The notes beneath the pieces are model-generated. The model was not told the DNA's origin, searched no databases, and saw only the letters and a list, made by a program, of their open reading frames with translations. A program made the translations under genes and the position numbers. Positions 6,408 to 22,424 of a stretch of 64,000 bases of DNA are shown one piece after another. Position 1 is the stretch's first letter. Each line of letters starts with the position of its first letter. Origin of the DNA: Aquimarina algiphila (GTDB lineage Bacteria > Bacteroidota > Bacteroidia > Flavobacteriales > Flavobacteriaceae); assembly GCF_007489275.1 (NCBI RefSeq), contig NZ_VLNR01000007.1, forward strand, positions 25,118 to 89,117. Direction: 5' to 3'.

Positions 6408-9400
6408 TTAGTATCGTATTAAAAAATTACCTTTATATCTTTCTTTATTGTTACCTCTTATAGTATAATAGTATACTCCGGGAATAAGATCTCTGGTCTC
6501 AAAAGTTATTGTGTTTTGATTAGGAACTATACGTTCTTGTCTAACGGTTCTTCCTATAATATCAATAACTGTCATTTCTAATTCATTATGTACACCTGGT
6601 ACTGTGATCGTAGTTTGAGTACTAAATGGGTTAGGATAATTCATTAATCTGATGGTCTCAGGTTGTTCATCCATTACTTGTGCCACTTCATCATTTTCAT
6701 CATCTCCGGCATCTGGAGTTTCTGGATCAATTTCTGGACTTATACTTTTGGTACTTGTAAAGGCTAAATCAGAAACTTCTACATGAAATGGTGCAAAGTT
6801 TTGATAATCTCCCTGTATAGAGAATACTACACTTCTTACTTTTTGAAAAGTTTCATTTTCTTTACTACCATTGGTAAAGTCAGAGAACGAGATTGTATGC
6901 GTCTTTTTTTCTGAAGCTGCATAAATTTTGTATCTAAGTCTATTATTCCAGTTGGTAAGGCCTTCTGTTACCAATATCACTTCGACATCTTTATCATTAA
7001 ACATTTCGAATTGCAGCGCGTCATAATCAGATATATCTAATGTAAGTTCACCAGCTAAAATATTTCTGAATAGGTTTAATGTTTCTTTTACATTACCCTT
7101 TACAATACTATTACGCTCTACGATATATGTATTCTCTTTGGTTTCTTTATCATGTTCTATTACTTCAAAAGTATCAATAGTAACCCCTTGTTGTAAGTAG
7201 TCGATACCCCATGGTCCATCGGCCAAATACAATGCATCTAATTGTGGAGAGTTTTCTCCTGTAATCGAGAATCCTATATCAAACAGATATCCTGTATCTA
7301 TAGTTACCTGCTCGTGATACGCTCCAGATAATGTGATTGTTTTTGTAATGTTTTCTTCTGGGGATTGTTCTGTTTTTCTTACGTTTCCATTAAAATTGAT
7401 ATGGTTTGAACCATGTTTGTTAATAATATTTAACGTCAATTTACCATTAGTGTAAGATCCTTTTTCTACAAATACGGTTGGTACTCGATGACTCACTTTA
7501 TGACTTCTTAATGGTTTGTCTGTTGTAAACGAATTTAAGATATGATTGGCTATATTGGCTACCTGTGATACTGATCCTCCCCATACCTGGAAGTTTGTAT
7601 AATCGCCTTCAGGATAGTTTCCGATGTTCCATAAGCTATAGATTTCATTTTCAGAATCACCTTTCTTGATAGAGAACGTCAAGGCATATTCAATTTCTCC
7701 AGTAGCTCTTTCAATTCTAGTACTTACGATGGTATGATTTTTTATTTTTACCGTTCGTACATCTAATAATTTAGAACCATTTAATCGATCACATATCGTT
7801 TTTGAATGATCATAAATAGAACCCTTTGTTGAGGTAGCTAATGCTGCTGCTACTCTTTTACTTCCTTTGTAATAATCTACAGAGAAAATTGCATTTGCGT
7901 TGGTGATAGAAATTAGATCTTCTGGGCTAGATACATACGTAGTTTCTGTGCCAAATATTCCTGTTTTTGGGAAATATATACTTAAATCATCCTTGTTACC
8001 AGATGTATATGATTTTTTTCCTGGTTGAAATCTTTTTTGTGATTTTTTAGTATTAAAAATTGAATTTGTCTTTGTTCTTGTAAAGTTACGTTTTGCAATT
8101 AGGTTTGCTAAATCTCCGTTACTTTCTAACCCACCATCATTAGCAGAAGTTACATCAGTAGCAGTATCAATATCAACATAATTATCGGTAACTATGGCAG
8201 TGTATGGACTAGCTGTGATATAGAATAATGCATCATTAAAATCCTGATCGCAAGAAGCATAATCTCTTCTGATATCTTCAAAACCTAATATGATTCTTTC
8301 ATTTTCTGGATCAGATAATAATACATTGTGATATCTTAATTCTGGATCGGTTTCTGGATTATAATCAGGATTAGAATGTAATTGCCAGTTTCCTGTTCCT
8401 ACACAACCATCAGACCAAGCATTGGCTAGTAATACCCACCCTATTCCTGTGTTAGGAGGAAAGCTTCCAATATTTACTTTATCACCAACTTCTAATCCGC
8501 CTCCACTTCCAACAGCAGATACATTAGGGAAAATAATAGTAATATCTTCTGGGACAGGCATAGATGGTGATGGATTATTAATGTCATAGGTATAGAAACC
8601 TAAAGTGTTTTTATATCCTGCTCCTTCTCCTACAAAAGTTACCCAAATATCAGCTTGTTCTTGAACAACAACATCGGTATCATAGCCTGAAGAAATATAA
8701 TGTGGATTAAAATCTGGTACAGGGTATCCTTCTGGTAAAGCATCATTAATCATATCTATAGTTTCCTGACTCACTACGTCTTTTTCGTCAAAGTATAATG
8801 GGGTACCATCAGAAGAAAAATCTCCTAAGTAATTATATCGGTCACAAATTTCAGGAATTGGGAAACTGTTTGGGCTTTGTCCTCCATTTTCAGGAGCAAA
8901 ACTACTTTTTCTTAAGTCAAAACTATCATCTAACCCATCATTATCGTTATCTATTCCAGAAGCGGTTGTTTCTGCCACTCCATCACCATCACTATCATAA
9001 GCTTCTGTGCTGTCTAAAATACCGTTATTATCAGAATCAGTATCCAAATGATCATACCCATCTGTACCATCTGTATTTACCGTTCCGTTTGTTGTTCCGC
9101 CAAAATCAGTATCAAAAGCATCATCTAACCCATCTTTATCCTCATCAATATTAGAAAGACCAATGTATGCATTACTTTCTTGTCCTTCTATAATATCTAC
9201 AATTCCATCATTATCAGAATCAATATCATAACAATCATAGATGTTGTCGTTATCTGTATCTAAAGGAATAAAAGTAGTACCTGTTTGATCAGGATCAAAA
9301 GAATTAGCTATACCGTCATTATCTGTATCCTGAAAATTAGTGTCAGATCCATTATAAATTCCGTCGTTATTAGTGTCTTTATCTCCTTGACCAGCTTCTA

Positions 9401-10418
9401 CAATATCATAGATCCCATCATTATCTGAATCAATATCTAAGAAATCTGGATTGCCATCACCATCTCTATCAAAGGCGTCTTGTACCACATTGTCTCCATT
9501 ACCACTTATATCGTTATCCAAATAGTTATACATATCATCACCGTCATCATCTCCATAAGGATCTAGTCCGTTGCATTCTATGGTGTTAGCTATACCGTCA
9601 CCATCACAATCTGCATCCATAGAATCCAAAATACCATCTTGATCTTTGTCTAAAGGAGAGATGCCACTAGCACATTTAAATCCGTCATTAGAATTTGTAG
9701 TTTCTGTAAGGTTAAGTAACGTAGCTGTTGGGGTGTTACCCTCATAATCATTTATTAAGTATAACCCGCCATTATTATCAGATAAGTATAATCTGTTGTT
9801 AGCATCTGCATAGGCAGCACCAAAAGTACCTCTTGGAAGATTACTAACAGTCTTACTAGAAAATACAGGTGTACCAGATGAAAGATCCCATTTGTATAGC
9901 TTTCCTCTACTACCTCCATAAATGTTTCCGTTAATAAATGCAATATCCGCACATGTACTGGGAGAGGCTACATCAGCCTCGATCACCTCAAATACCGGAG
10001 ATGAAGAACCATTGTAATCTTTTAGGTTTGTTATTTTATGAAATGATTTTTTATTATTGTTCTGAAAAACCCAAAGATTACCATCTGTATCTACATCTGC
10101 TGCATATCCTCCTCCAAAAGCTGTAGTTCCTGACGGTGTTACTGCACCCAAGTCGATAACCATATCTTTGGCGATTCTTAAAAGGTGTTTATCACTATTT
10201 TTAATAGCATATAAATAATTATCTACTACATTATATCCTCCTGCATTATAGGAGGAATAGGTATGTAAAGCATCAGAATATGAACCTGTGATAGGATCAT
10301 AAGCTTTCATTACACCAGAAATAACCTGATAGAAATTACCTTCGTTACAATCAAAAGGCTGTTGAGCAAAGCCCAATGCTCCAAAACATAAAATCAAAAG
10401 AGTAATAATTTTTTTCAT
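6408..10418 (-). CDS. Large T9SS surface protein: beta-propeller, thrombospondin type 3 repeats, DUF4114
   Basis: A 1336-aa protein. A signal peptide ends at GFAQ. Residues about 25-245 look like a propeller (repeated NLYAIKNSD and GNIYGGSRGKLYKWD blades). Residues 255-505 are a run of calcium-binding thrombospondin type 3 repeats (DxDxDG, e.g. DKDQDGILDSMDADCDGDG). Residues about 600-735 match DUF4114, ending in the typical GFEDIRRDYASCDQDFNDALF. About residues 740-1230 are unassigned beta-rich sequence. The final 85 residues, from LMNYPNPFSTQTTI to GNFLIRY, are a T9SS sorting domain. Probably a calcium-stabilised adhesin or matrix protein. Monocistronic. Confidence 0.85.
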   Translation of the reverse strand: MKKIITLLILCFGALGFAQQPFDCNEGNFYQVISGVMKAYDPITGSYSDALHTYSSYNAGGYNVVDNYLYAIKNSDKHLLRIAKDMVIDLGAVTPSGTTAFGGGYAADVDTDGNLWVFQNNNKKSFHKITNLKDYNGSSSPVFEVIEADVASPSTCADIAFINGNIYGGSRGKLYKWDLSSGTPVFSSKTVSNLPRGTFGAAYADANNRLYLSDNNGGLYLINDYEGNTPTATLLNLTETTNSNDGFKCASGISPLDKDQDGILDSMDADCDGDGIANTIECNGLDPYGDDDGDDMYNYLDNDISGNGDNVVQDAFDRDGDGNPDFLDIDSDNDGIYDIVEAGQGDKDTNNDGIYNGSDTNFQDTDNDGIANSFDPDQTGTTFIPLDTDNDNIYDCYDIDSDNDGIVDIIEGQESNAYIGLSNIDEDKDGLDDAFDTDFGGTTNGTVNTDGTDGYDHLDTDSDNNGILDSTEAYDSDGDGVAETTASGIDNDNDGLDDSFDLRKSSFAPENGGQSPNSFPIPEICDRYNYLGDFSSDGTPLYFDEKDVVSQETIDMINDALPEGYPVPDFNPHYISSGYDTDVVVQEQADIWVTFVGEGAGYKNTLGFYTYDINNPSPSMPVPEDITIIFPNVSAVGSGGGLEVGDKVNIGSFPPNTGIGWVLLANAWSDGCVGTGNWQLHSNPDYNPETDPELRYHNVLLSDPENERIILGFEDIRRDYASCDQDFNDALFYITASPYTAIVTDNYVDIDTATDVTSANDGGLESNGDLANLIAKRNFTRTKTNSIFNTKKSQKRFQPGKKSYTSGNKDDLSIYFPKTGIFGTETTYVSSPEDLISITNANAIFSVDYYKGSKRVAAALATSTKGSIYDHSKTICDRLNGSKLLDVRTVKIKNHTIVSTRIERATGEIEYALTFSIKKGDSENEIYSLWNIGNYPEGDYTNFQVWGGSVSQVANIANHILNSFTTDKPLRSHKVSHRVPTVFVEKGSYTNGKLTLNIINKHGSNHINFNGNVRKTEQSPEENITKTITLSGAYHEQVTIDTGYLFDIGFSITGENSPQLDALYLADGPWGIDYLQQGVTIDTFEVIEHDKETKENTYIVERNSIVKGNVKETLNLFRNILAGELTLDISDYDALQFEMFNDKDVEVILVTEGLTNWNNRLRYKIYAASEKKTHTISFSDFTNGSKENETFQKVRSVVFSIQGDYQNFAPFHVEVSDLAFTSTKSISPEIDPETPDAGDDENDEVAQVMDEQPETIRLMNYPNPFSTQTTITVPGVHNELEMTVIDIIGRTVRQERIVPNQNTITFETRDLIPGVYYYTIRGNNKERYKGNFLIRY

Positions 10419-10718
10419 AGCGGTATAGTTTAAGTTTTCAGATGGTTAAAATTAATCTATACTTGTGCCTGATCATGGAGTTATTCGATCAGAGGTAATT
10501 TACTGTAGGTGAATGGATTTTGTATCAGGTTGTATCTGTCTATAGTATTATTGTACAGATTGATAAGAGTATTGTTTCAGATTATTTTTATACTATTCTG
10601 AGACCATTATATAATCATCTGTCAATATTTATTTCTATTTTTAACAAATCATGAAAAAAATGACGATCTATATAGTATGGTCAATTTAAATTTTTTATGA
10701 CTAAATTTTGTTTTAGCT
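10419..10718. other. Divergent intergenic region, 300 bp
   Basis: It separates the large surface protein (minus) from the LemA operon (plus) and should hold both promoters. A TAAATTTTG at 10702-10710 is one base off the TAnnTTTG consensus and lies very close to the LemA start. No exact TAnnTTTG was found. No small gene seen. Confidence 0.5.
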
Positions 10719-11285
10719 ATGAGTGGAATTATGATTATTGTTTTTATTGTTTTAGGTGGTGTTATCCTGTTGTTTTTGGCAGGGATTTCTATTTATAATA
10801 GTTTAGTTACTAAAAAGAACCTTATGGAAGAAGGATGGAGTAGTATTGATGTTTTTCTAAAAAAAAGAAATGACTTAATACCTAATTTGATGGAAACCGT
10901 TAAAGGGTATGCAAGTCATGAAAAAGAGCTTTTTGAAAACGTTACTGCGTCGAGAAACTTAGTTCAGAATGCTAATACGGTATCTGATCAGGGTAACGCA
11001 GAAAATGCACTAAAAAATTCTATGATGAATCTTTTTGCAATTGCAGAAAATTATCCAGAATTAAAAGCAAATCAGAATTTTATCGAAATGCAAAATGAAT
11101 TAAGTGCTATTGAAGAAGAGATTGAGATGGCTCGTCGATATTATAACGGTACCGTAAAAGAGAATAATATAGCAATAGAAAGTTTTCCTTCTAATATTAT
11201 TTCAAATATGTTCAACTTTAATAAGGGAACTTTTTTTGAAATCAAGGAAACATCACAGCGAGAGCCAACAAAAGTATCTTTTTAG
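10719..11285 (+). CDS. lemA: LemA family membrane protein
   Basis: A 188-aa protein with an N-out single transmembrane helix (residues about 4-26) followed by the long helical LemA domain. Family hallmarks are visible: YNSLVTKKNLMEEGWSSIDV, KKRNDLIPNLMETVKGYASHEKE, and AENYPELKANQNFIEMQNEL, then EIEMARRYYNGTVKENN. LemA proteins are widespread envelope proteins of poorly defined role. It is the first gene of a seven-gene operon; its TAG stop is followed immediately by the ATG of a glycosyltransferase, so translation is probably coupled. Linkage to three glycosyltransferases hints at a role in assembling or exporting a glycan (inference). Confidence 0.92.
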   Translation: MSGIMIIVFIVLGGVILLFLAGISIYNSLVTKKNLMEEGWSSIDVFLKKRNDLIPNLMETVKGYASHEKELFENVTASRNLVQNANTVSDQGNAENALKNSMMNLFAIAENYPELKANQNFIEMQNELSAIEEEIEMARRYYNGTVKENNIAIESFPSNIISNMFNFNKGTFFEIKETSQREPTKVSF

Positions 11286-12437
11286 ATGATGTTAAATGTT
11301 TATGCTGCTTATGATGTATTTCCTAGTTCTAAAGGATCATCTACACATATAAAAGAAATGATATCTGAGTTATCGACACATGGGGATGAACTTAGATTAT
11401 TATGTCTAAGGGGAAATGATAAGCTTCCCGCAGTACAAAAGCACGAAAATATCTTAATCAAGAGGTACTATTCTAATGAAAGATTAAATTATTTAGAAAA
11501 AGCCTCTCTGTTCTCTGAAGAAATATTTTTAGAAATTGAAAGAAATAAAAATAATATAGAAATAGCCCATTTCAGAGATATATGGAGTGGTATGGGAATC
11601 ATAGCTCATAAAAATATCAAGTCAGTTTTTGAAGTTAATGCACTTACTTCAATAGAATTGCCTTATCGATACCCCAATCTTACAGATGATTTTCTAAGTA
11701 AACTTAGGTTTTTAGAACAAAAATGTCTCGCAAATTCAGATGTCATTATTACACCTTCATATACAACAAAAAAGCTGTTAGTGTCTGAGTATAATGTTCT
11801 TGAAGATAAGATTAAAGTGATTCCTAACGGAGCATATATTCCTGAGTCTTTTGAAAGACCAAATGACGCTCCAGATAACTATATCATTTATTTTGGAGCT
11901 TTACAACGATGGCAGGGAATAGAAGTGCTTTTAAAAGCGATGACTTTTTTACAGGACTACGAAGATTTAAAATTAGTGATTTGCTCATCTGTAAAAGAAA
12001 AAGCGTTTAAACCATTACAAAAACTAATAGAAAAATTAGAAATTAACGAACGCGTTATAGTAAAGTCAAAATTACAAAGAGAAGAACTTTATAATTATAT
12101 ACATTTCGCAAAATTATCAATAGCCCCTTTAAAAGCATGCAATAGAAATATTATTCAAGGCTGTAATCCTTTAAAAATATTAGAATCTATGGCTTGCGGA
12201 ACTACGATTGTAGCATCAGATTTACCTGTAGTAAGAGAACTTGTATCTGACAAAGAAGCGATGTTAGTAGAACCAGACAGGGAGTTAGATCTAGCTCGAT
12301 GTATCCGTTTTTTACTGGATACTCCAGAAGAGCGTATAGCTTTGTCAGATAGAGCATTAAAGAAAATGAAAGAGGAGTTTACCTGGCAAATACAAGTAAA
12401 AAAGTTAAACCAAGTGTATGAGGATTTAAGAAATTAA
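11286..12437 (+). CDS. Glycosyltransferase family 4 protein (GT-B)
   Basis: A 383-aa protein of usual GT4 length. The N-terminal half has the acceptor-side VFPSSKGSSTHIKEM motif. The C-terminal half has the donor-binding pattern: KVIPNGAYIPESF, YFGALQRWQGIEVLLKA, and NPLKILESMACGTTIVASDLP at the E-x7-E region, although the first Glu is replaced in the usual position. Start: two ATGs lie in tandem directly after the LemA stop. The donor sugar cannot be told from sequence. Cytoplasmic or membrane-peripheral. The next gene begins 1 bp after its stop. Confidence 0.85.
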   Translation: MMLNVYAAYDVFPSSKGSSTHIKEMISELSTHGDELRLLCLRGNDKLPAVQKHENILIKRYYSNERLNYLEKASLFSEEIFLEIERNKNNIEIAHFRDIWSGMGIIAHKNIKSVFEVNALTSIELPYRYPNLTDDFLSKLRFLEQKCLANSDVIITPSYTTKKLLVSEYNVLEDKIKVIPNGAYIPESFERPNDAPDNYIIYFGALQRWQGIEVLLKAMTFLQDYEDLKLVICSSVKEKAFKPLQKLIEKLEINERVIVKSKLQREELYNYIHFAKLSIAPLKACNRNIIQGCNPLKILESMACGTTIVASDLPVVRELVSDKEAMLVEPDRELDLARCIRFLLDTPEERIALSDRALKKMKEEFTWQIQVKKLNQVYEDLRN

Positions 12438-12438
12438 T

Positions 12439-13368
12439 ATGAATAAACAAGGATCTGTTTTAACTGCCGAACAATTTAGTGGAGCTCCTATAGAAAGAGC
12501 ACATTTACATAGGGGCTTTACATCAAAAAAGACACCATTAAAATGGATTCGTTTTTTTAGAGCTTGTGTATTACAAAGAGAACATGCAAATAATAAAAAG
12601 AAAAAAGAAATTAAAAAAATATGGATTGGGGCAGTATCATTAATTGTTCTTGGGTTTATAATTAATTATTTTTATTATTTTCCCGTAGTCATATTGATTA
12701 TAGCAAGCATAGGTGGTGGAATACTACTTACTGTAAATGTTAATAGTAAGTTTAGGAAAAAATATACAGACGGGTTTGATTTTTTTTCAGATTATTTTTC
12801 TGCTTTTTTTACATTAATAGAAGAGGATTTACAACCTCAATCCAGAATTTCGTTAGAAGCTAATGTAAAAAACACAATGCAATCCACAAATTTGGTAAAA
12901 CAAGAAAAACATGAGGCAAACACTTCTGGGTTCATTTCGGGAAGTAATTATTATTATGAAAAAGAGATTAGTAAGGGATCTTGCTTTTTAAGTGACGGAT
13001 GCATGCTTTCCTTTAATTTTACAGAACGATTAAGAAATCGTATTATTACCAAAAGAGGGAGTGTAAGTGGTAAACGAAAAACAAAACGGAAGTATAAATC
13101 GGTATATCCTTTTGTATTAAAAATGAAAATTCCAAAAACGAAATATATACTTAAAAAAGAGGTGGATAAGTCTAATATACAGTTAGCAGAAGACACAAAC
13201 TTTTATATTGTTAAAACCACTAGAAAATTTGATATTAAAAATGAACACCCAGAAAAATATCAACCGTATTCATCAAGCTCTATAGAGATGTTTTCTTCTG
13301 ATTATTTTGCTTTAGAATTAATTAATTTGATAAACGTAAGTTATAGTTGTGTAACTCCAAGAGTGTAA
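12439..13368 (+). CDS. Hypothetical membrane protein (two-helix hairpin)
   Basis: A 309-aa protein. A cytoplasmic N-terminus rich in Lys/Arg (about 60 residues) is followed by two adjacent transmembrane helices (about 61-80 and 81-100). A basic, beta-rich C-terminal domain of some 200 residues contains many short strands (KSVYPFVLKMKIPKTKYILK). The layout recalls DUF3137-type proteins, which often accompany LemA, but I cannot confirm that from motifs. It sits between a glycosyltransferase and a zinc-ribbon-like gene in the LemA operon. Confidence 0.6.
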   Translation: MNKQGSVLTAEQFSGAPIERAHLHRGFTSKKTPLKWIRFFRACVLQREHANNKKKKEIKKIWIGAVSLIVLGFIINYFYYFPVVILIIASIGGGILLTVNVNSKFRKKYTDGFDFFSDYFSAFFTLIEEDLQPQSRISLEANVKNTMQSTNLVKQEKHEANTSGFISGSNYYYEKEISKGSCFLSDGCMLSFNFTERLRNRIITKRGSVSGKRKTKRKYKSVYPFVLKMKIPKTKYILKKEVDKSNIQLAEDTNFYIVKTTRKFDIKNEHPEKYQPYSSSSIEMFSSDYFALELINLINVSYSCVTPRV

Positions 13369-13374
13369 ACCTAT

Positions 13375-13761
13375 ATGGAAGAAAGAAAAAATTGCGAAGA
13401 GACTATCGGATTATTTGTTTTGCGAGCATGTGATACAACAATGGTTCATAATTGTAAAAGATGTGATAAACCCATATGTAATATTCATGCATTTAAGCCT
13501 TTAGAGAATACTAATGCAGAGATAGGAGCACAAAACTTATGTTTAACGTGTTTTACAGAGCAAGACACAAGATTAACCAAAGATATTGAGTTATACTCGA
13601 AAGACCGATATGTGTGGCGTAGAAAAATGATAGAACGTTTTCATAAAGAATATGAGTATATGACCTTTATTGCAGAGGATTATGGAGGACTATTTATGGT
13701 TGATGACTATTATGATAATTATGATGATACCGATGATGGAACTTCTTATTTTGATAGCTAA
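13375..13761 (+). CDS. Small cysteine-rich, probably zinc-binding protein
   Basis: A 128-aa protein with CxxC at residues 27-30 (CKRC), C35 and H38 (CNIH), and CxxC at 56-59 (CLTC), plus C19. This is the spacing of a B-box or zinc-ribbon-like site. The C-terminal 15 residues are strongly acidic (DDYYDNYDDTDDG). No signal peptide or membrane segment, so it is probably cytoplasmic. Its stop is directly followed by the ATG of the next glycosyltransferase. It may be an adaptor or regulatory partner for the enzymes of the operon (inference). Confidence 0.65.
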   Translation: MEERKNCEETIGLFVLRACDTTMVHNCKRCDKPICNIHAFKPLENTNAEIGAQNLCLTCFTEQDTRLTKDIELYSKDRYVWRRKMIERFHKEYEYMTFIAEDYGGLFMVDDYYDNYDDTDDGTSYFDS

Positions 13762-14865
13762 ATGAGCCTTCTTTTTATTACTCAACATTATCACCCTAGC
13801 AAAGGAGGGATGGCAGAATCTTGCGATCGATTAATTCGTAATTTCAGAAAGCATAAGGTAGATGTTCACGTCATTCACTTTACAAATAGAAGAAAAAAGT
13901 TTTACACAGAAGCTGCTGTACAAGGAAGTTATTCTGCGGTGCCAGTTTATAATTCAGAAGAGTTTACGCTTAATCTAGCTTCTCAATTTATAGAAGGATT
14001 ATCCATATTAAGTGATATAAAATATGTTGTTGCGTTTGGTGGACATCTGCCTATTGTTTTAGGACCAATTATTTCAAAATGGATAGATAAACCATTAATT
14101 ACTCTAATTAGAGGTAATGATTTTGATGAAGCAATTTTTTCTAAGAGACGCGAAGCTTTGTTATATACATTAAAACAATCTAAATTTATTTTCACAGTTA
14201 CCGATGAGAAAAGAGATAAAATTGTTAAACTAATACAACATCCAAATGTGTATTTTACGCATAATGGGATTAATTGTAAACTATGGGAACCTGGTAATAG
14301 TCAATTAATACAGATTGATGCATTAAAAAAGAATTCTGAGGAAAGAAAACGAATTGTTATCGTTGGACAATTAAAAGCCAAAAAGGGGATATTAGAATTT
14401 TCAACTACTTTTTCTTCTTTTAGTAATAAAGAAGAATATGAAATTTGGATGGTTGGTGATATAGAAGAGTCTGTCAAGGAATACATTAATCAACTCGATA
14501 TTAAAGTATGTTTTTTTTCATTTGTAAATAAAAATGAATTAATAATCTTTTATCATGCGGCAGATATTATTTTAATCCCTTCTTTTTATGATGGAATGCC
14601 AAATGTATTATTAGAAGCGGGAGCTTCAAAAAATGTGGTTATTGCCTCAAGAGTTGGAGGCATAAAAGATGTAATCGAGCATGAAAAAGATGGCTTTTTA
14701 TTTAATCCATTACAACCTTCGAGTCTTCTAGAAGTGCTCATGAAAGTACATAAATTAGATTCAGAAGCAAAAGCTGAAATTTCTAATCGTTTATTTAACA
14801 AAATAAACAATGAATATACCGAAGAAAAAGAGATCATAAATTATTTAACTAAACTGCAATTATGA
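13762..14865 (+). CDS. Glycosyltransferase family 4 protein (GT-B)
   Basis: A 367-aa protein. The N-terminus ITQHYHPSKGGMAESCDRLIRNF is the classic GT4 start (glycine-rich acceptor loop). Later come FTHNGINCKLW, IVIVGQLKAKKGILEF, and PSFYDGMPNVLLEAGASKNVVIASRVGGIKDVI, which contains the donor-binding E-x7-E-like stretch. It is a second GT4 in the operon with a sequence clearly different from the first, so the two probably add different residues. Its last four bases overlap the start of the following lipoprotein gene (ATGA). Confidence 0.87.
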   Translation: MSLLFITQHYHPSKGGMAESCDRLIRNFRKHKVDVHVIHFTNRRKKFYTEAAVQGSYSAVPVYNSEEFTLNLASQFIEGLSILSDIKYVVAFGGHLPIVLGPIISKWIDKPLITLIRGNDFDEAIFSKRREALLYTLKQSKFIFTVTDEKRDKIVKLIQHPNVYFTHNGINCKLWEPGNSQLIQIDALKKNSEERKRIVIVGQLKAKKGILEFSTTFSSFSNKEEYEIWMVGDIEESVKEYINQLDIKVCFFSFVNKNELIIFYHAADIILIPSFYDGMPNVLLEAGASKNVVIASRVGGIKDVIEHEKDGFLFNPLQPSSLLEVLMKVHKLDSEAKAEISNRLFNKINNEYTEEKEIINYLTKLQL

Positions 14866-15479
14866 AAAAGATATATACTGTAGCATTACTTTGCTTATTG
14901 TTAATCGCAAGTAGCTGTAAAACAAATACCGAAAATAATGCATCAAAAGAGACCGAAGCAAACCATGTTGTAGAAACAACTAATGTTGATGCTCAAATGG
15001 TTATTTCGACAGCAACAGGAGAAAAAATAGGAGGATTTACTCTGGATCCCTTAACGATTTATGCAGGAGGAAATAAGCATACAAGCAAGAACAAACCTGA
15101 TAAGCATAAGTTTTATACCAACGGGTCAATGGTGTATGAAGTTAAGTTTAAAAGTGAAGGTTTTAAATTAAGAGATAAAAATTCAGAGTTATTATGGAAA
15201 ATTAAAATATATCCAGATAAAATTAAGATATCAAACAATGAAGAAAATGAAAATGCTTTTGAAATCAAGAGATACGAAGATAAAATCAAAATAAAGCGTA
15301 ATGAAGAAGAACTGTACGCTATCCAATTAGGTTCTTCCTCGGTTATTATCAATGATGAAGCGCTATACCAATTGTCTTCTGATCAAGATAGCTATGCATA
15401 CGCCATTTTAGCTATAAAAGAAATCCCAGAAGATCAAAAAATATTCATTCTTGCAGAATTGTTGTCACAGCTACAATGA
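14862..15479 (+). CDS. Outer-membrane-type lipoprotein, hypothetical
   Basis: A 205-aa protein with a lipoprotein signal peptide: MKKIYTVALLCLLLIASSC, lipid Cys at residue 19, followed by KTNTENN. The residues after Cys do not match the acidic Bacteroidota surface-export signal, so a periplasm-facing location is likely. The rest (residues 50-205) consists of short charged beta strands with repeated KIKI and NEEN patterns (KLRDKNSELLWKIKIYPDKIKIS), a beta-helix- or sandwich-like repeat. It overlaps the upstream and downstream genes by 4 bp each, showing translational coupling within the LemA operon. Confidence 0.65.
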   Translation: MKKIYTVALLCLLLIASSCKTNTENNASKETEANHVVETTNVDAQMVISTATGEKIGGFTLDPLTIYAGGNKHTSKNKPDKHKFYTNGSMVYEVKFKSEGFKLRDKNSELLWKIKIYPDKIKISNNEENENAFEIKRYEDKIKIKRNEEELYAIQLGSSSVIINDEALYQLSSDQDSYAYAILAIKEIPEDQKIFILAELLSQLQ

Positions 15480-16282
15480 TCTTATTTTATGTATATGGAT
15501 CTGGATTAGGACACCTTAATAGAATACTTAGTTATATCAAGATTAGAAAAATAAAACTTTCATCTTGTATTATTCTAACCAATTCGCAGCATAAAAAATT
15601 TCTTCCGCAAGAAATAAAAATGATGTGTTATCCAGATTCTTTTTTTAAGGATCATGAGTTGTTTTTTAGTACACTTATTCGATGTATTGAAAAGTATGCT
15701 ATCTATGAACTTGTAGTTGATGTTTTTCCATGTGGTTTTTATGGAGAACTTAGTATTCTAGATAGAGTTAATGTAAAAAAAACAATAGTAACTCGTATTC
15801 TTAAAACATCTTATTTTGATAAATATAGTTGTCCTCATTATGACGATTTAATTTTACTAGAAAAGGGAATTGAGCTTGATTATTATAAGTATTCAAATCT
15901 AATATACCTATCTATTCAGGAAGGTTTTGAGTATTCAAAACAAAAACTACCATTAAAAGAACCATTCTTTTTTATTATTCATTCTGAACCTAAAGAAGAA
16001 GTGATTCAATTGTATAAACTGGCGCAGTTATATCAAAAAAACAATGAACATATTTATATTCAAACATTCAGTAAAATAACTGAATTTGATGAAAAAGATG
16101 TGACTTTTATTTTTTCTGAAAAACCAATTCTACCTTTACTTGAACGTTCTGTAAAATTTTTTACAGCTTGTGGATTTAATACTTTTTTTGCAACACAAGA
16201 CTATCGTCAAAAACAACATTTTTTACCCTTTAAAAGAAGGTTTGACGATCAATTTAAAAGAAAAAAATACAATCCATTATAA
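15476..16282 (+). CDS. MurG/GT28-like glycosyltransferase
   Basis: A 268-aa protein. The N-terminus FYVYGSGLGHLNR is the glycine-rich acceptor loop of MurG/GT28-type GT-B enzymes. Near the C-terminus ACGFNTFFATQDY followed by HFLPFKRRFDDQFKRK fits the 'GyNsf.E......P.....eQ..RA' donor-side pattern. At 268 residues it is shorter than typical GT28 proteins (about 350), so one Rossmann half is compact. It is the last gene of the LemA operon and its end overlaps the convergent LytTR gene by 6 bp, leaving no room for a conventional terminator. Confidence 0.65.
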   Translation: MILFYVYGSGLGHLNRILSYIKIRKIKLSSCIILTNSQHKKFLPQEIKMMCYPDSFFKDHELFFSTLIRCIEKYAIYELVVDVFPCGFYGELSILDRVNVKKTIVTRILKTSYFDKYSCPHYDDLILLEKGIELDYYKYSNLIYLSIQEGFEYSKQKLPLKEPFFFIIHSEPKEEVIQLYKLAQLYQKNNEHIYIQTFSKITEFDEKDVTFIFSEKPILPLLERSVKFFTACGFNTFFATQDYRQKQHFLPFKRRFDDQFKRKKYNPL

Positions 16283-16993
16283 CAAGTTTAATCTTCTCAT
16301 GAGTTCAGGTCGATTTGATCGACTTACTGGGATTACATCTTTAGCAATAAGGACACTATTATCTTCTATATCAATGATTTTTTTGATATTGATAATGTAG
16401 GAACGATGTACTTTTAAAAAAAGGTCATCAGGTAATTTTTCTTCAATCTTTTTTAATGTAGAATGAACCGTATAATTCTGTTTTTCAGTTTTAATTAGGA
16501 TATAATCTCCTTTTGCCTCAATTACATTAATAGTGGGAATATTAATTTTAATTAATCTTCTATCGATATTAATATAGAGTTCATTTTCTTCAGAAGTAGG
16601 GTTTAAAGAAGACTCCGTTTTTGTTTCAACTTTTGCCGAAACAGTAGCGTTTTCAGCTTTTTGAATTGCTTTAAGAAAACGAGGTAACGTTATTGGTTTT
16701 ACCAAATAATCTACAATACAGTCATATTCAAAAGCTTCTAGAGCAAAATTCTTGTCAGAGGTCGTTAAAATAATTTTTGGAGGGTTTTTTAGTGTATCAA
16801 TAAAATCAAAACCGGTAAAATCAGGCATGTGGATATCCAGAAATATAAGATCAACTTCTTCTTTATTTAAAAATTTTATAGCCTGAATTGCATTAGGAAA
16901 ATCCTGAATTACATGTAATTCATCAACTTGCGAACAAAGTTGTTGAATAATAGCTCTTGCAGTTTCTTCATCATCAATAATAATACAATTCAT
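16277..16993 (-). CDS. LytTR-family response regulator
   Basis: A 238-aa protein. The receiver domain (1-120) has an acidic pair (DDEE at 7-10), phospho-acceptor D53 in LIFLDIHMPDF, and K in YLVKPI. A LytTR DNA-binding domain occupies about residues 140-238 (RRLIKINIPTINVIEAKGDYILI, LFLKVHRSYIINIKKI). It is the last gene of the seven-gene NO-sensing operon and the only DNA-binding protein in it, so it is the likely transcriptional output. LytTR proteins bind paired direct repeats about 21 bp apart; such a pair lies upstream of this operon. Confidence 0.92.
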   Translation of the reverse strand: MNCIIIDDEETARAIIQQLCSQVDELHVIQDFPNAIQAIKFLNKEEVDLIFLDIHMPDFTGFDFIDTLKNPPKIILTTSDKNFALEAFEYDCIVDYLVKPITLPRFLKAIQKAENATVSAKVETKTESSLNPTSEENELYINIDRRLIKINIPTINVIEAKGDYILIKTEKQNYTVHSTLKKIEEKLPDDLFLKVHRSYIINIKKIIDIEDNSVLIAKDVIPVSRSNRPELMRRLNLL

Positions 16994-17006
16994 ATGATTT
17001 TGATTT

Positions 17007-17327
17007 TTAAATAGTTTTAAGAAATTGTTCTATGGATTCTAAAATTAACATAAATTTTGAATATAATGAAGGATCATTATCTTTTAGTCCCTCTTCAAAA
17101 TTTATTGCAGTCTGGTAACCTTCTTCATATCCAAACATACCAATTTTGTGTTTTAGTTTATGTACATTTTCTGCTGCTTTACTATAAGCATTTGTCGCAT
17201 AGTTGTTAAGGAATTCTTTTTTTTCTTCAGGAAATTCTCGTTTTACGATTCCTATTAACTTTTGTTCGAAAACAACTGAACCGGCAGCCAATTCTTTTAT
17301 ATATATAAGGTTAGGGGTTTCACTCAT
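17007..17327 (-). CDS. Hpt-domain phosphotransfer protein
   Basis: A 106-aa all-helical protein. Residues 56-66, HKLKHKIGMFG, fit the Hpt signature HxLKGxxxxxG, so H56 is the likely phosphorylated histidine. Length fits a stand-alone Hpt. It lies 3 bp after a histidine kinase gene and 13 bp before a LytTR response regulator gene. It therefore probably relays phosphate between the kinases and regulators of this operon. In Gammaproteobacterial H-NOX and NosP circuits several kinases converge on one Hpt; the same logic may apply here (inference). Confidence 0.82.
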   Translation of the reverse strand: MSETPNLIYIKELAAGSVVFEQKLIGIVKREFPEEKKEFLNNYATNAYSKAAENVHKLKHKIGMFGYEEGYQTAINFEEGLKDNDPSLYSKFMLILESIEQFLKTI

Positions 17328-17330
17328 TTC

Positions 17331-18401
17331 TTATTTTTTTAATGTAAAATAAAAAGTAGTACCAATCTCTTTTTCTGATTCTATCCAGATTTCACCATTA
17401 TAAAATTCCACTATCTTCTTCACAATCGATAATCCAATACCTGTTGAAACTTTTTTGTCATCAAGAGTTTGAAATATTTCAAATATCTTGTTATGGTATT
17501 TTTTAAGAATTCCTTTACCGTTATCTTGAATACCAAATTTCCAGAAATCAGGAAGTTCTTCAAAAAGAACTTCGATCTCTCCTTTTTCCTTATCAATTGC
17601 ATGTATGGCATTATTAATCAAATTCTGAAATATTTGTTTTATTCTGGAGGGATCTGCATGTATAATAGGAAGCGTATTGGGAATGCTAATAGTAATATGA
17701 TCTGAGATCGGTATTAAGTTTATGATTCCTTTAATCAAATCAATCAGATTAATATCAGATTCTAGATTTCTTGCTTTATCATCAATAACAGAATATTCTA
17801 AAATTCCGCTGATTAGATTATCCATTTTTTCAATGTTTTGATCAATCAAATTAAGATTGTTTTCTGTTGTGGTTTCAAGTTTCCCTTGATTGTCTTCTTT
17901 TATCCAGGTAATGAGTGTATTAATACTCCTAAGAGGAGATTTTAAATCATGAGAGACCACATGCGCATAATCATTAAGTTCTTTGTTACTTTTTTCAAGA
18001 TCTTTGAGTAGTAATTCTCTCTGTTTTTCTACTTCCGAAATTTGATTTGCTTGTTCTTCTATTAATGTTGCAAGTTCTATTCCGGTGAGCTCTTCTCCTT
18101 GATGATCTCCTTTTTGTTTTTTGAATGTTAATAATTGTAAAGTTTTGGTTGCGTCGGTTAGTCTGGTAATCACTTTTTTTTGTCGTTCTGCTTCTTGTTG
18201 GAGTTTTTGATTAGCCTCAAATAACTCCTGAGAGCTTATAGACATAGCTCTTTGCAACATGCTAAATTGATCTTCAAAATTATGATAAGATTTATCAATA
18301 GCACTAAGGAATTTTTCCATGTCCAGAAACTCTTTGGTGTCTGGATCGATATTCAAGAATTTTCTAATTTGTCTTACTAATAATGAATGCATATTATTCA
18401 C
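17331..18401 (-). CDS. Cytoplasmic sensor histidine kinase (FIST-linked)
   Basis: A 356-aa protein with no transmembrane segment. Residues 40-145 are coiled coil. The HisKA domain has H151 in YAHVVSHDLKSPLRS. The ATP-binding domain follows (NLINNAIHAID, DNGKGI, GIGLSIVKKIV) and ends GTTFYFTLKK. It has no receiver domain. Its start overlaps the end of the upstream FIST gene by 8 bp, pairing it with that sensor. The C-terminal half is clearly paralogous to the larger kinase two genes upstream. It probably signals through the Hpt protein encoded 3 bp downstream. Confidence 0.9.
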   Translation of the reverse strand: MNNMHSLLVRQIRKFLNIDPDTKEFLDMEKFLSAIDKSYHNFEDQFSMLQRAMSISSQELFEANQKLQQEAERQKKVITRLTDATKTLQLLTFKKQKGDHQGEELTGIELATLIEEQANQISEVEKQRELLLKDLEKSNKELNDYAHVVSHDLKSPLRSINTLITWIKEDNQGKLETTTENNLNLIDQNIEKMDNLISGILEYSVIDDKARNLESDINLIDLIKGIINLIPISDHITISIPNTLPIIHADPSRIKQIFQNLINNAIHAIDKEKGEIEVLFEELPDFWKFGIQDNGKGILKKYHNKIFEIFQTLDDKKVSTGIGLSIVKKIVEFYNGEIWIESEKEIGTTFYFTLKK

Positions 18402-19527
18402 TAAATAGGGTTAATGTCATAGTTTGATTATGTAATTCACAATTTACGTTTCCCGAAAAAGGAGCCAATTCGCCATAAGAATAAAACCCAGCTATAGTAG
18501 ATTGAGAGCCAATATGCTCCATGACTTCTTCTATCTCTTCTTCTACACGTTGATCCATAACTAATTTTCGACCTATACAGCTAACTAATAATGCTAATTC
18601 TGGTTTGTTTTTTCTGTTTTCCATACCTATTTCTGCTGCTCTTAATGCACCATCAACAATATGATCAATATTTGCCATCATCAATTGCACGACAGATCCT
18701 TCGGGAACATCACCAGCTAGTATCATAGCATTAGCTTCTTCATTAATGGTGAGGATAGTCCTTACAATAGACTCTTTTTTATCCTTTGATTTTACACTAA
18801 GAGGGTATAGTAATGCAGATTGAGGGAGCTCTGCAGCTTTATCGCCTAAATATTTTTTATATAAGTCTAAAGCAGGTTGATTGTCTAATTCGTAGAGAAT
18901 ATTTTGTTCAGACTTCGTAATAATTCGTTCTGGTCCAAATGGTGTCCAGCCACCATATTGAGCAAAACTAATTTCTAGAGACTCGCCATAAAATGCAATT
19001 AACACAACTTCACCTTCTTTTGGGTTTTCGTTATAACTAGCAAGGGTTTTTTCAAATCTCGAATCATCTCCGCACAAACCACCAGTTATAGCAATTTCGT
19101 CATGCATTGTTTCTAGACCTTCTATCAAAGCAGAGCCATTGATAAAACTCCCTTCTGAAACAATGAAAATATGCTTTAAACCTTGTTTGGGAACTTTTTT
19201 AATAAGTTTACGACCTATTTGTATAGCATCTTTGTTGTTATCCAAACTGTTTTCACGAAATATTGAATAGGTGCTTTTTTCAAATTCTATAGCAGTTAAT
19301 GTTATTGATTCATCTAGAACATTTCCTCCTATGATTTCTCCAGCAGTAGAACCAAAAATGATTTCTCCATCAGGAAATAAATCTTTAACTTCTTGATAAA
19401 TACTCTCTTTTTCTAATGCGTATCGATTTCCAAAAACTAAAACTAAAGGCTTTTTTAGTTTTGGTTGCGTATGATCTTTAATAGTCCACGTTTGGTTTTT
19501 TTTCTTTTCAAATTGTTGAAATTTCAT
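18394..19527 (-). CDS. FIST-domain sensor protein (NosP-type NO sensor candidate)
   Basis: A 377-aa protein made of FIST_N (about residues 25-215; FPDGEIIFGSTAGEIIGG, ITGGLCGDDSRF) and FIST_C (about 225-365; AGFYSYGELAPFSGNVN, LHNQTMTLTLF). No membrane segment. Some FIST proteins (NosP) are heme-based nitric-oxide sensors that control a co-transcribed kinase. Here the gene overlaps a histidine kinase gene and shares an operon with an H-NOX protein, which supports that role. I cannot identify the heme ligand from sequence alone, so heme binding is inference. Confidence 0.85.
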   Translation of the reverse strand: MKFQQFEKKKNQTWTIKDHTQPKLKKPLVLVFGNRYALEKESIYQEVKDLFPDGEIIFGSTAGEIIGGNVLDESITLTAIEFEKSTYSIFRENSLDNNKDAIQIGRKLIKKVPKQGLKHIFIVSEGSFINGSALIEGLETMHDEIAITGGLCGDDSRFEKTLASYNENPKEGEVVLIAFYGESLEISFAQYGGWTPFGPERIITKSEQNILYELDNQPALDLYKKYLGDKAAELPQSALLYPLSVKSKDKKESIVRTILTINEEANAMILAGDVPEGSVVQLMMANIDHIVDGALRAAEIGMENRKNKPELALLVSCIGRKLVMDQRVEEEIEEVMEHIGSQSTIAGFYSYGELAPFSGNVNCELHNQTMTLTLFSE

Positions 19528-19532
19528 AAGAC

Positions 19533-21128
19533 TTATTTTTTTAGTGTAAAGTAAAATGTAGTACCTATATCAGGAGTACTTTCCAGCCATATCTTTCCTT
19601 CATATAGATCCACTATCTTTTTGACTATAGCAAGTCCTATTCCTGAAGAATTTTCATTATCTCCAACAGATTCAAACATTTTAAATATTTTTTCATGATA
19701 TTCCTTTTTGATTCCAATACCATTATCTTTTATAGAAAAAAGATGGTGTGTTTTTTTATCCTTATGGTCTATTTCTATTTCCCCTTTTTCTTTATCCATA
19801 TAAATTACAGCATTACCAATTAGGTTTTGAAAAAGTTGTTGTATTCTTATCTCATCTCCATATATAATAGGTAACTGTTTTTTGCTAGAAACCACAATGT
19901 GTTCTGGAATTAGTACAATGCTTTTGATTTCATTTATGAGTCTATTAAGATCGATGTCTTTGCTTTTGAGGTTGTCTTTATTACTTACACTAGAATAACT
20001 AAGGATATCATTAATTAAGACTTCCATTTTTTCTAGTGTTTTTTCTATCATAGAAAGATGATCAAGTCCGCTCTTATCAAAGACAGTACTATAATCTTCC
20101 TTAATCCAATTCACAAGAGCATAAATGCTTCTCAATGGTGATTTTAGATCATGAGATACAATATGTGCATAATCTTTAAGCTCTTGGTTAGTTTTTTCGA
20201 GATCGGTTACCAACTTTTCTCTTTGTTTTTCAAACTCTAACTGCTCTGTAATATCCTCTATTAGTGCAACCTGATATTTTACACTTCCATTATGATTACG
20301 AACAGCGCCTACATTCGTTTTTGCCCAAAGTGTATTTCCGTCTTTTTTGAGATATCTTTTATTTACTGTAAAACTGTCAATCTCTCCATCATTTACTCGT
20401 TTCATATTATCTTCAGAGGCAACATATTCATCTTTTAAAGAAATATCTTTCACTTCCTTTTTTACGAGTTCTTTTTCAGAATATCCCAGTAAATTTTGAA
20501 AAGCTTTATTGGTTTGAATTATTTTACCTCCCTGGGTAAGCGCAATACCAAGAGATGAATTCTCGACAATAACAGATAATTGTTTTTTTTGTTCTTCAAA
20601 TATCTGTTTCTGCAGAAGTTCTTCAGTAATGTCTCTTACAATTCCTTGAGCTCCTATAGGGTTTTTGTTTTTATCTTTAATTATACTTGCATTAATATGT
20701 ACGGTTCTAATACCATTATTTTTTGTATATACTCTGGCTTGGTAATTAGAAAAAGAACCTTTAGTGATAAGTTCTTGAAAAGAGTTCATGGCGTATTGAT
20801 AATCTTCTTTGTAGATAAGAGTCATGACATTTAGAGTGTCCTTACTGATATCATATCCAAATAATTGATTGGCAGCATGATTCATTTCTAGTACATTGCC
20901 TGATATATCCATCAATACATAGGCGTCTACTAAGTTGTCAAAAACACCTTGTAATTCAGACTCTTTTTTGCCTACTAGGTACTCTAGTTTCTCATTAGTC
21001 TCTTTTAGTTCCTGGGTGATTTGGTAGAGTTCTAGTGATTTATCTTCTAGAATATTTTCTGCTTGTTTTCTAGCAGCTTTTTCTCTTTGAAGGGCTCTTT
21101 TTAGTATGTCTACATCTTCATTACTCAT
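19533..21128 (-). CDS. PAS-PAS histidine kinase (H-NOX-linked)
   Basis: A 531-aa cytoplasmic kinase. The N-terminal coiled coil (ILKRALQREKAARKQAENI) is followed by PAS 1 (about 60-170, ends VRDITEE) and PAS 2 (about 182-297, ends IEDITEQ). HisKA has H326 in YAHIVSHDLKSPLRS, followed by an HATPase_c domain with DNGIGI and SSGIGLAIVKKIV. No receiver. Its start codon overlaps the end of the H-NOX gene by 8 bp, the usual arrangement for an H-NOX-regulated kinase. PAS domains may add further input. Confidence 0.92.
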   Translation of the reverse strand: MSNEDVDILKRALQREKAARKQAENILEDKSLELYQITQELKETNEKLEYLVGKKESELQGVFDNLVDAYVLMDISGNVLEMNHAANQLFGYDISKDTLNVMTLIYKEDYQYAMNSFQELITKGSFSNYQARVYTKNNGIRTVHINASIIKDKNKNPIGAQGIVRDITEELLQKQIFEEQKKQLSVIVENSSLGIALTQGGKIIQTNKAFQNLLGYSEKELVKKEVKDISLKDEYVASEDNMKRVNDGEIDSFTVNKRYLKKDGNTLWAKTNVGAVRNHNGSVKYQVALIEDITEQLEFEKQREKLVTDLEKTNQELKDYAHIVSHDLKSPLRSIYALVNWIKEDYSTVFDKSGLDHLSMIEKTLEKMEVLINDILSYSSVSNKDNLKSKDIDLNRLINEIKSIVLIPEHIVVSSKKQLPIIYGDEIRIQQLFQNLIGNAVIYMDKEKGEIEIDHKDKKTHHLFSIKDNGIGIKKEYHEKIFKMFESVGDNENSSGIGLAIVKKIVDLYEGKIWLESTPDIGTTFYFTLKK

Positions 21129-21666
21129 TTGTTTTTACAATGCTAAATTTTACTTCCGTTCCATCTGATTTGAGTTTTTCGAAGGTAATCTTTGCAGTAG
21201 TGTCAAAGTGTTCAAAAGTTTTGTTCATTAGCCCCAATCCAAAACTATACATGGCTCTACTTGATTTATAAATCATGACCAATTTGGTGTCAGTTTTTTC
21301 TAATACTTCAAAGGTTGGTAGTTCGGCGTCAGGGTATATTTTTCGAACTTCTACATGTATATGGTTTTCAATAGAGGATAAAAGTTCTATAGGATCGTTG
21401 TATTTTTCGATCAAACCGGGATAACTACCTGCTAAAACGCTAAAAAAATGTTCTGCATAGACAAGAAGCAAGTCATCTATGCTCAATTGGGTATGTTCAC
21501 TTAAATGTTTAAGTAAACCTAACATTTCAGAGAAATCATAGGTGCCGATTGCAGTGTAGACTCCTTGAGATGGAAGGTTGGATTGTTGTATGATTTTATC
21601 AACGACTTCTAGTCCGAATTTATCTTCTACTAACTCTAAAAATTCAGTAAATACAATACCCTTCAT
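21121..21666 (-). CDS. H-NOX heme nitric-oxide sensor
   Basis: A 181-aa protein starting MKGIVFTEFLELVEDKFG. The family's heme signature H-x12-P-x15-YxSxR is complete: H104 (proximal ligand), P117, and Y133-K-S135-S-R137. The position equivalent to the distal Tyr140 of the oxygen-binding Thermoanaerobacter protein is F142, so a hydrophobic distal pocket and NO-selective, non-oxygen-binding behaviour are expected. It is second in the operon, after a CheY-like gene, and overlaps the PAS kinase gene by 8 bp. The expected role is to bind NO and alter that kinase's activity. Confidence 0.92.
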   Translation of the reverse strand: MKGIVFTEFLELVEDKFGLEVVDKIIQQSNLPSQGVYTAIGTYDFSEMLGLLKHLSEHTQLSIDDLLLVYAEHFFSVLAGSYPGLIEKYNDPIELLSSIENHIHVEVRKIYPDAELPTFEVLEKTDTKLVMIYKSSRAMYSFGLGLMNKTFEHFDTTAKITFEKLKSDGTEVKFSIVKTNE

Positions 21667-21686
21667 ATAATTATTATGTTTTTAGT

Positions 21687-22094
21687 TTATCCTTTTACAA
21701 GCTCATTTACAGTCCAATATTCGATAAGACATTTGATCTTGTGTACATAATCTTCATATTTTAATGGTTTGACAATATATCCTGAAGCACCAATTCTATA
21801 AGCCTCTTTAAGATCTTGATGATTGTTAGAAGTGCTTAATATGACTACAGGTAAATATTGTAAAGTTGCATCTGCCTTTAGTTCTTTTAAAAACTCCAAA
21901 CCGTTCATTTTTGGCATGTTTAAATCCAGAAAAATTAAATCTGGGAGTTTCTCTTTTTGAGCTAAAACATCTAGTGCTTCTTCACCATTAATAGCTTCAA
22001 TAATGTTGTGGGGGTAATTGTTTTTTTGCAAGACTCGTGCAAATTTTAATCGTTCTATTTCGTCATCGTCAATCAATAAAATGTTCAAGCCCAT
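21687..22094 (-). CDS. Single-domain receiver (CheY/Rcp1-like) response regulator
   Basis: A 135-aa receiver domain with no output domain. It has an acidic pair in LLIDDDEIER, phospho-acceptor D57 in LIFLDLNMPKMNG, T/S switch in VVILSTSN, and K in YIVKPLKYEDY. The DDDEIERLKFARVL start is typical of Rcp1-type receivers that pair with cytoplasmic kinases. It is the first gene of the NO-sensing operon, 20 bp before the H-NOX gene. Without an output domain it may act as a phosphate sink, a relay to the Hpt, or by protein contact. Confidence 0.9.
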   Translation of the reverse strand: MGLNILLIDDDEIERLKFARVLQKNNYPHNIIEAINGEEALDVLAQKEKLPDLIFLDLNMPKMNGLEFLKELKADATLQYLPVVILSTSNNHQDLKEAYRIGASGYIVKPLKYEDYVHKIKCLIEYWTVNELVKG

Positions 22095-22184: not shown

Positions 22185-22234
22185 CAAAACCTATTTTTAG
22201 TGTAGATGAATGGGAGTTTTCTATAGATGAATGG
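22185..22234 (-). promoter_or_regulatory. Putative LytTR-bound promoter of the NO-sensing operon
   Basis: TAGATGAATGG occurs at 22203-22213 and again, identically, at 22224-22234, a 21-bp period (two helical turns), as expected for LytTR dimers. On the minus strand a TAggtTTTG at 22193-22185 (one base longer than TAnnTTTG) lies 9 bp downstream of the repeats, so the repeats would cover the -33 region of an activator-dependent promoter. Which regulator binds is inference; the operon's own LytTR protein is the obvious candidate. Confidence 0.55.
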
Positions 22235-22424
22235 AAATTATTTTTTTTCTCATCAAGATATCAAAATGATCAAGATATAGAGAAGACTTAAACCTTCTCA
22301 AACTACCATTATTATTATGTTGATTGATTTTTAGGAGTTAATGTTTTGATAGCCATTCTTTTAAGAAAATAGAAGAATGATCTATTCTTTTTTCTTAACG
22401 ACGAATCAAAAAAATGAAAAAAGG

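Follow-up and report, generated by a model that had tools for sequence, protein, structure and literature searches.

A candidate nitric-oxide phosphorelay with a tandem LytTR-type site at matrix genes in marine Flavobacteriaceae

The control that nitric oxide exerts on biofilms is generally attributed to cyclic di-GMP (c-di-GMP), and an operon of Aquimarina algiphila that combines two candidate sensor genes with two histidine kinase genes raises the question of which genes such a system would control, and by what route. The operon occupies positions 16277 to 22094 of a 64,000-nucleotide stretch of DNA (the window; RefSeq assembly GCF_007489275.1, contig NZ_VLNR01000007.1, forward-strand positions 25,118 to 89,117). 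We consider it probable, with real room for doubt, that it encodes a multi-input His-Asp phosphorelay that lets nitric oxide regulate the transcription of matrix and adhesin genes with no part for c-di-GMP. An earlier sequence-only reading had placed seven minus-strand open reading frames here, and both their coordinates and their Pfam domains agree with it:

21687..22094, minus strand: stand-alone CheY-like receiver, operon gene 1 (Pfam Response_reg, 92 bits)
21121..21666, minus strand: H-NOX, predicted heme nitric-oxide sensor (Pfam HNOB, 134.8 bits; full-length match to PDB 6bdd, 283.8 bits)
19533..21128, minus strand: kinase 1, with two PAS domains, HisKA and HATPase (Pfam), presumed H-NOX partner (8-bp overlap with H-NOX)
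18394..19527, minus strand: NosP-like FIST protein, presumed second sensor (FIST (FIST_N), 148.4 bits; FIST_C, 123.8 bits)
17331..18392, minus strand: kinase 2, with its own N-terminal region, HisKA and HATPase (Pfam), presumed FIST partner (start assigned from relatives)
17007..17327, minus strand: Hpt phosphotransfer protein (Pfam Hpt, 24.6 bits, exactly the Pfam cut-off)
16277..16993, minus strand: LytTR response regulator (REC and LytTR), putative transcriptional output (Pfam LytTR, 73.9 bits; Response_reg, 66.6 bits)

Phosphoacceptor residues are present in both kinases (...SHDLKSPLRS...), both receivers (...FLD...) and the Hpt protein (His56, kept in 96/96 aligned Hpt sequences), and the H-NOX motif is complete, as had been described (H104-x12-P117-x15-Y133-x-S-x-R137). 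The same reading had reported 8-bp overlaps between each sensor gene and a kinase gene; that between H-NOX and kinase 1 holds, whereas that between FIST and kinase 2 needs a GTG start at 18401 and was rejected as a solid feature because it hangs on the choice of start codon. The ATG at 18392, three codons past this GTG, aligns with the kinase 2 starts of relatives such as L077 and L088 and is the likely start, which would leave a 1-bp gap to FIST. The source genome (7.0 Mb) contains one H-NOX and one FIST gene.

Across 397 genomes of Flavobacteriaceae, H-NOX was found in 146, FIST in 116 and both in 93. The two genes lay no more than 15 kb apart on the same strand in at least 75 genomes, three further loci (L140, L147 and L156) having been found later, and FIST was downstream in 74. 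The sole exception to this order among the 75 is G253 (locus L063), where FIST (12511-13650) lies upstream of a divergent H-NOX and adjoins the gene of a 1156-aa kinase, a different H-NOX/FIST arrangement. Tandem arrays of 2-4 divergent FIST genes were also observed in genomes without H-NOX or away from H-NOX (G247, G069, G101, G225, G261 and others). The comparisons below draw on all 75 co-located places and on 25 of the remaining 75 places with H-NOX; 99 of these 100 matched the window H-NOX, and in 98 of the 99 a CheY-type gene lies upstream of H-NOX. A survey of the phylum found H-NOX in 27 of 395 genomes, 15 of these 27 being Flavobacteriaceae, and one of 13 regions from outside the family (G544, L263) carries the whole operon together with the site and the secreted DUF6923 gene described below. 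That the operon is unique to this genome was rejected, the same order occurring in 74 family genomes; the arrangement, earlier called unusual, is so only against other groups, since it is common within the family (74 of 75 co-located genomes).

A LytTR-type direct repeat precedes the operon:

22200..22239, minus strand: tandem LytTR-type site, CCATTCATC direct repeat, 21 bp start to start (position weight matrix (PWM) score 41.6; profile E 2.1e-6)

This tandem pattern occurs once in the window and in 0 of 100 shuffles, and once in the 7.0-Mb genome, where the reversed pattern gave 0. An exact CRTTCRTC tandem lies upstream of the first gene in 15 loci, and a PWM grown from these loci, that is, from operon promoters only, scores above 8 before the operon in 92 of 98 loci, in a single orientation throughout and with a period of 21 bp (consensus CCATTCGTC[GT]ACACTTAA-N4-CCATTCGTC[TG]ACAC). 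Known LytTR sites consist of two direct repeats of 9-11 nt with a spacer of 11-13 nt, as described in passages of PMC4847170; the operon site fits this architecture, its 9-nt CCATTCRTC repeats at 21 bp start to start giving a 12-nt spacer. Moreover, a weak third half-site lies 21 bp past the second repeat.

The site and the LytTR gene occur together: among the 98 loci, 89 hold both, 3 the site only, 1 the LytTR gene only and 5 neither (Fisher p 4.8e-6 with the non-operon locus L162 left out, a value that overstates independence because the loci are related). The six loci without the site are L084, L086, L089, L098 and L124, all without a LytTR gene, and L154; the site stands without a LytTR gene in range in L070, L141 and L145 (L145 lies at the end of a contig). 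In five genomes without the operon LytTR gene and site, a CheY and LytTR gene pair with a strong site (score 33-50) is found elsewhere (L216-L220), adjoined by a flippase gene in 3 of the 5. Furthermore, the distance from the site to a downstream TAnnTTT box has a peak at 47-48 bp, with 27 of 60 occurrences, and in 31 of 80 loci a copy falls at 44-50. The full form, TAnnTTTG, is the Bacteroidota -7 box. The TAnnTTT peak fits the position of an activator and suggests that the protein bound at the site may be one.

A second site in the window precedes the gene of a large protein predicted to be exported by the type IX secretion system (T9SS):

10482..10521, minus strand: second tandem site, with a weak second repeat, 63 bp upstream of the gene start of the secreted protein (PWM 22.5; profile E 0.0022 genome-wide)
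6408..10418, minus strand: 1336-aa T9SS-secreted protein, predicted regulon member (DUF6923, 90.2 bits; Por_Secre_tail, 32.8 bits; TIGR04183)

A profile built from 50 operon sites and searched in 80 genomes (E up to 0.5) matched 374 sites in 70/70 operon genomes (5.3 each) versus 7 in 10 H-NOX-less genomes (0.7 each); because many of the 70 genomes supplied training sites, at least one match in each is expected, and the excess is what counts. In 120 loci, whose selection by operon or by site means that they give no genome census, the PWM at a score of 20 or more yielded 248 placements versus 0 for its column-reversed form in 2.06 Mb, placements in neighbouring registers 21 bp apart being counted twice. 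The genes that follow encode CheY-type proteins (105), secreted DUF6923-type proteins (35), glycosyltransferases of families GT1 (17) and GT2 (13) and STAS proteins (15), with fewer placements before genes for a flippase (6), UDP-glucose dehydrogenase (1) and a chain-length-type protein (1). Pfam confirmed DUF6923 with a T9SS tail, Glycos_transf_1, STAS, Polysacc_synt_3, a receiver with Glycos_transf_2, and UDP-glucose dehydrogenase among these targets; the chain-length-type protein fell below the Pfam cut-off, and a 1028-aa membrane protein matched no family. When six distant sites were opened, one preceded a receiver-GT2 gene, one a secreted protein gene, one the gene of a membrane protein that looks polymerase-like by eye, and three no convincing target. 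No nitric-oxide detoxification genes were recognised among the recurring downstream clusters, no search by family having been made.

Genes in which a receiver is fused to a family 2 glycosyltransferase were observed after LytTR-type sites in L207 (9552-10736), L364 (428-1630) and relatives; the fusion possibly represents a matrix enzyme directly controlled by phosphorylation. Between the two sites of the window, the plus strand (10719-16282) holds a run of genes unrelated to the labelled regulon genes, among them a LemA gene and one or more glycosyltransferase genes.

The GGDEF domain was found in 0 of 40 operon genomes, the source genome included, and matched in 8 of 14 control genomes. The classical nitric-oxide route via diguanylate cyclases is therefore unlikely in operon genomes.

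On the input side, FIST and kinase 2 form one cassette that is present or absent as a unit over a constant core: 74 of the 99 loci hold both, 22 neither and none a mixture, and the other three (L140, L147 and L156) hold a divergent FIST with another kinase. A kinase gene follows FIST in 77/77 FIST-bearing operons, and FIST with kinase 2 recurs in 6 of 7 additional family regions. The best relative of kinase 2 in its own genome is kinase 1 (52%, 243.6 bits; the next of 33 matches 39%, 115.6 bits), so that the two are each other's closest relatives there, as the claim of paralogy had anticipated; this claim rests on the own-genome search, since the comparison of kinase cores used one outgroup kinase only. 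Two family loci (L270 and L272) carry a third kinase ahead of Hpt. We read these patterns as sensor-kinase front ends that may be exchanged over one relay.

FIST is at most a candidate for the NosP-type nitric-oxide sensor that had been proposed. FIST_N and FIST_C are present and kinase 2 adjoins FIST, the domains and context looked for in NosP; on the NosP model itself (NF041558, an NCBIfam equivalog), FIST scores 72.7 bits versus a cut-off of 450 and was rejected as a certified NosP, which leaves it only a candidate second nitric-oxide input. Its presumed role as a sensor draws on the link to kinase 2 and the analogy with NosP. The best-surviving alternative, a serious one that we place somewhat below even, is that H-NOX is the sole nitric-oxide sensor and FIST brings another signal (another ligand or redox), the operon integrating both. 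The low NosP score points this way, as do the 22 of 99 H-NOX loci without FIST and the lack of a solved structure related to FIST by sequence, for which we looked and found none. In L140, L147 and L156, moreover, the FIST in the slot is ~20% identical and without C363 and H366, and the kinase N-terminal region is different (in L147 and L156 it is unrelated, beside a core 56-57% identical to that of kinase 2), so that the slot accepts other sensors. C317 is kept in 77/77 aligned FIST proteins, and C363 and H366 are kept in 74/77. The CxLHNQ motif with its His is likewise kept in 74/77, which speaks against this alternative. The NosP model is also narrow: the FIST of Azospirillum, which likewise lies beside a kinase, fails it at 50.4 bits, and failure at the cut-off thus says little about heme. 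The Azospirillum gene (L277, on a plasmid of the alphaproteobacterium Azospirillum lipoferum) is followed by genes for a PAS kinase and a response regulator, and its FIST is 38% identical. Among the best 80 of 537 confirmed FIST relatives, ranked by likeness and hence no census of taxa, the closest is from Aquimarina sp. AU474 (89% identity).

A second alternative concerns the output: the tandem site might belong to another LytTR regulator or serve autoregulation only, with matrix genes carrying it as operon neighbours. Many matrix sites do lie less than 30 kb from the operon, and CheY-type genes follow 105 of the 248 placements, both of which lend it weight. We nonetheless regard it as unlikely, because LytTR and the site relocated together in five genomes, only operon promoters went into training the PWM, and sites occur at separate loci, before GT2 genes in G196 and the source genome and before a secreted protein gene in G213. 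In the source genome this is a third site (contig C250), whose GT2 gene is divergent from genes for proteins of 1028, 410 and 515 aa that accompany GT2 in relatives.

H104 and Y133 are invariant in 99/99 aligned H-NOX loci. The Kordia algicida H-NOX (PDB 6bdd, 6bde; 283.8 bits) is a full-length relative of the window protein, and its heme site (6bdd) was studied for gas binding, according to passages of PMC7356049; from this relative we infer that the window H-NOX binds heme and nitric oxide. No paper on the operon or regulon of the Kordia protein was found in the open-access literature. The H-NOX-to-FIST spacings (n=75) cluster at 1332-1353 bp (6), 1706-1756 bp (19), 2096-2137 bp (26) and 2476-2518 bp (20), with the remainder at 2231-2239 bp (2), at 2716 bp (1) and in the inverted G253 (1); steps of ~380 bp fit one PAS domain each in kinase 1, whose PAS number varies between genomes, so that kinase 1 may itself sense further inputs. 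A primary role of the operon in sensing oxygen or redox state instead of nitric oxide, which this variable PAS count (clusters near 1350, 1730, 2110 and 2500 bp) and the zinc-cysteine redox site of some H-NOX proteins (PMC8738867, in part) might suggest, is improbable, because the window H-NOX has no cysteine and its closest solved relative is one whose heme site was studied for gas binding.

In the multi-input relay that we favour, H-NOX would bind nitric oxide and control kinase 1, while on a parallel branch FIST, putatively through heme, would control kinase 2. The catalytic cores of the two kinases are paralogous, for which reason both are predicted to donate to Hpt, and phosphate would pass from either kinase through this one protein to the small receiver and the LytTR regulator. 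Once phosphorylated, the LytTR regulator would bind directly to tandem CCATTCRTC repeats in front of the operon itself and of genes for the synthesis and export of exopolysaccharide, for STAS proteins and for large T9SS-secreted surface proteins. If the relay behaves like most H-NOX and NosP systems characterised so far, nitric oxide would lower kinase activity and thereby matrix and adhesin expression, with a presumed effect on biofilms; the sign could be either, since NosP inhibits NosK and NahK but Legionella NosP stimulates its kinase (PMC8738867, in part). The earlier proposal of two sensor-kinase pairs converging on one Hpt and LytTR regulator thus gains from cassette co-inheritance and kinase paralogy, and FIST is in it only a candidate nitric-oxide sensor.

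Several observations weigh against the favoured relay. FIST lies far below the NosP cut-off and has no solved relative; L154 has a LytTR gene and no site; and full TAnnTTTG is weakly enriched (11, versus 4.8 on average and at most 10 in shuffles). Weak profile matches occur in 5 of 10 control genomes (best E 0.014), and 55 of the 248 placements have no interpretable target (27 with no gene start within 350 bp, 28 unlabelled). The source genome has two strong sites only, the third having E 0.048 and two further ones, without a clear target, E >0.4. The cyclic-di-nucleotide census covered GGDEF only, EAL and HD-GYP not having been searched, and the case is computational throughout, with binding, phosphotransfer and expression as predicted steps. 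We are evenly divided on a broader formulation, namely a c-di-GMP-free switch, widespread in marine Flavobacteriaceae, by which nitric oxide would govern biofilm matrix and in which interchangeable cassettes (H-NOX/kinase 1, FIST/kinase 2, divergent FIST with its kinase) feed a constant Hpt-LytTR core that would act through one tandem site at exopolysaccharide and secreted-adhesin genes, and in some genomes also through a receiver-fused glycosyltransferase.

The relay would mean that, in a large marine family without detected diguanylate cyclases, nitric-oxide sensors act on a regulator whose DNA site can be recognised at matrix genes. If so, the nitric-oxide behaviour of seaweed- and particle-attached bacteria becomes directly testable, a Bacteroidota LytTR regulator acquires a defined regulon, and the family, in which FIST may be present, absent or swapped and PAS domains number one to several, provides a natural series in which to study the addition of sensors to one relay. 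FIST genes near 'group 1' H-NOX genes have already been reported as a neighbourhood-network statistic (PMC8738867, in part), and no study of the operon, site or regulon was found in the open-access literature. New here, and absent from the sequence-only reading, are the LytTR-type site, the finding that it recurs before genes for matrix and adhesins (one of them in the window), and the lack of GGDEF.

Among known systems, the H-NOX/kinase phosphorelays of Gammaproteobacteria (Vibrio, Shewanella) likewise have an H-NOX gene adjoining a histidine kinase gene, and the Vibrio relay passes to the Hpt protein LuxU (PMC8738867, in part); their known outputs are c-di-GMP enzymes or quorum sensing, whereas here the output would be LytTR, with GGDEF in 0/40 operon genomes. 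In the NosP systems, NosP acts as an inhibitor of NahK or NosK, and HptB receives phosphate from NahK, according to passages of PMC11784011 and PMC12570481. There, too, the FIST gene adjoins a histidine kinase gene; in the window, by contrast, FIST falls below the NosP cut-off, the kinase is non-hybrid, the operon is shared with H-NOX and the output is predicted to be LytTR. AlgR of Pseudomonas aeruginosa, also a LytTR regulator, acts on exopolysaccharide genes and has a 9-bp core, CCGTTCGTC (PMC4064291, in part), one base off the CCATTCGTC of the window site. This likeness may be convergent, and the window system differs from AlgR in its strict 21-bp tandem spacing, its phylum, and its predicted input from an Hpt protein and gas-sensor kinases.

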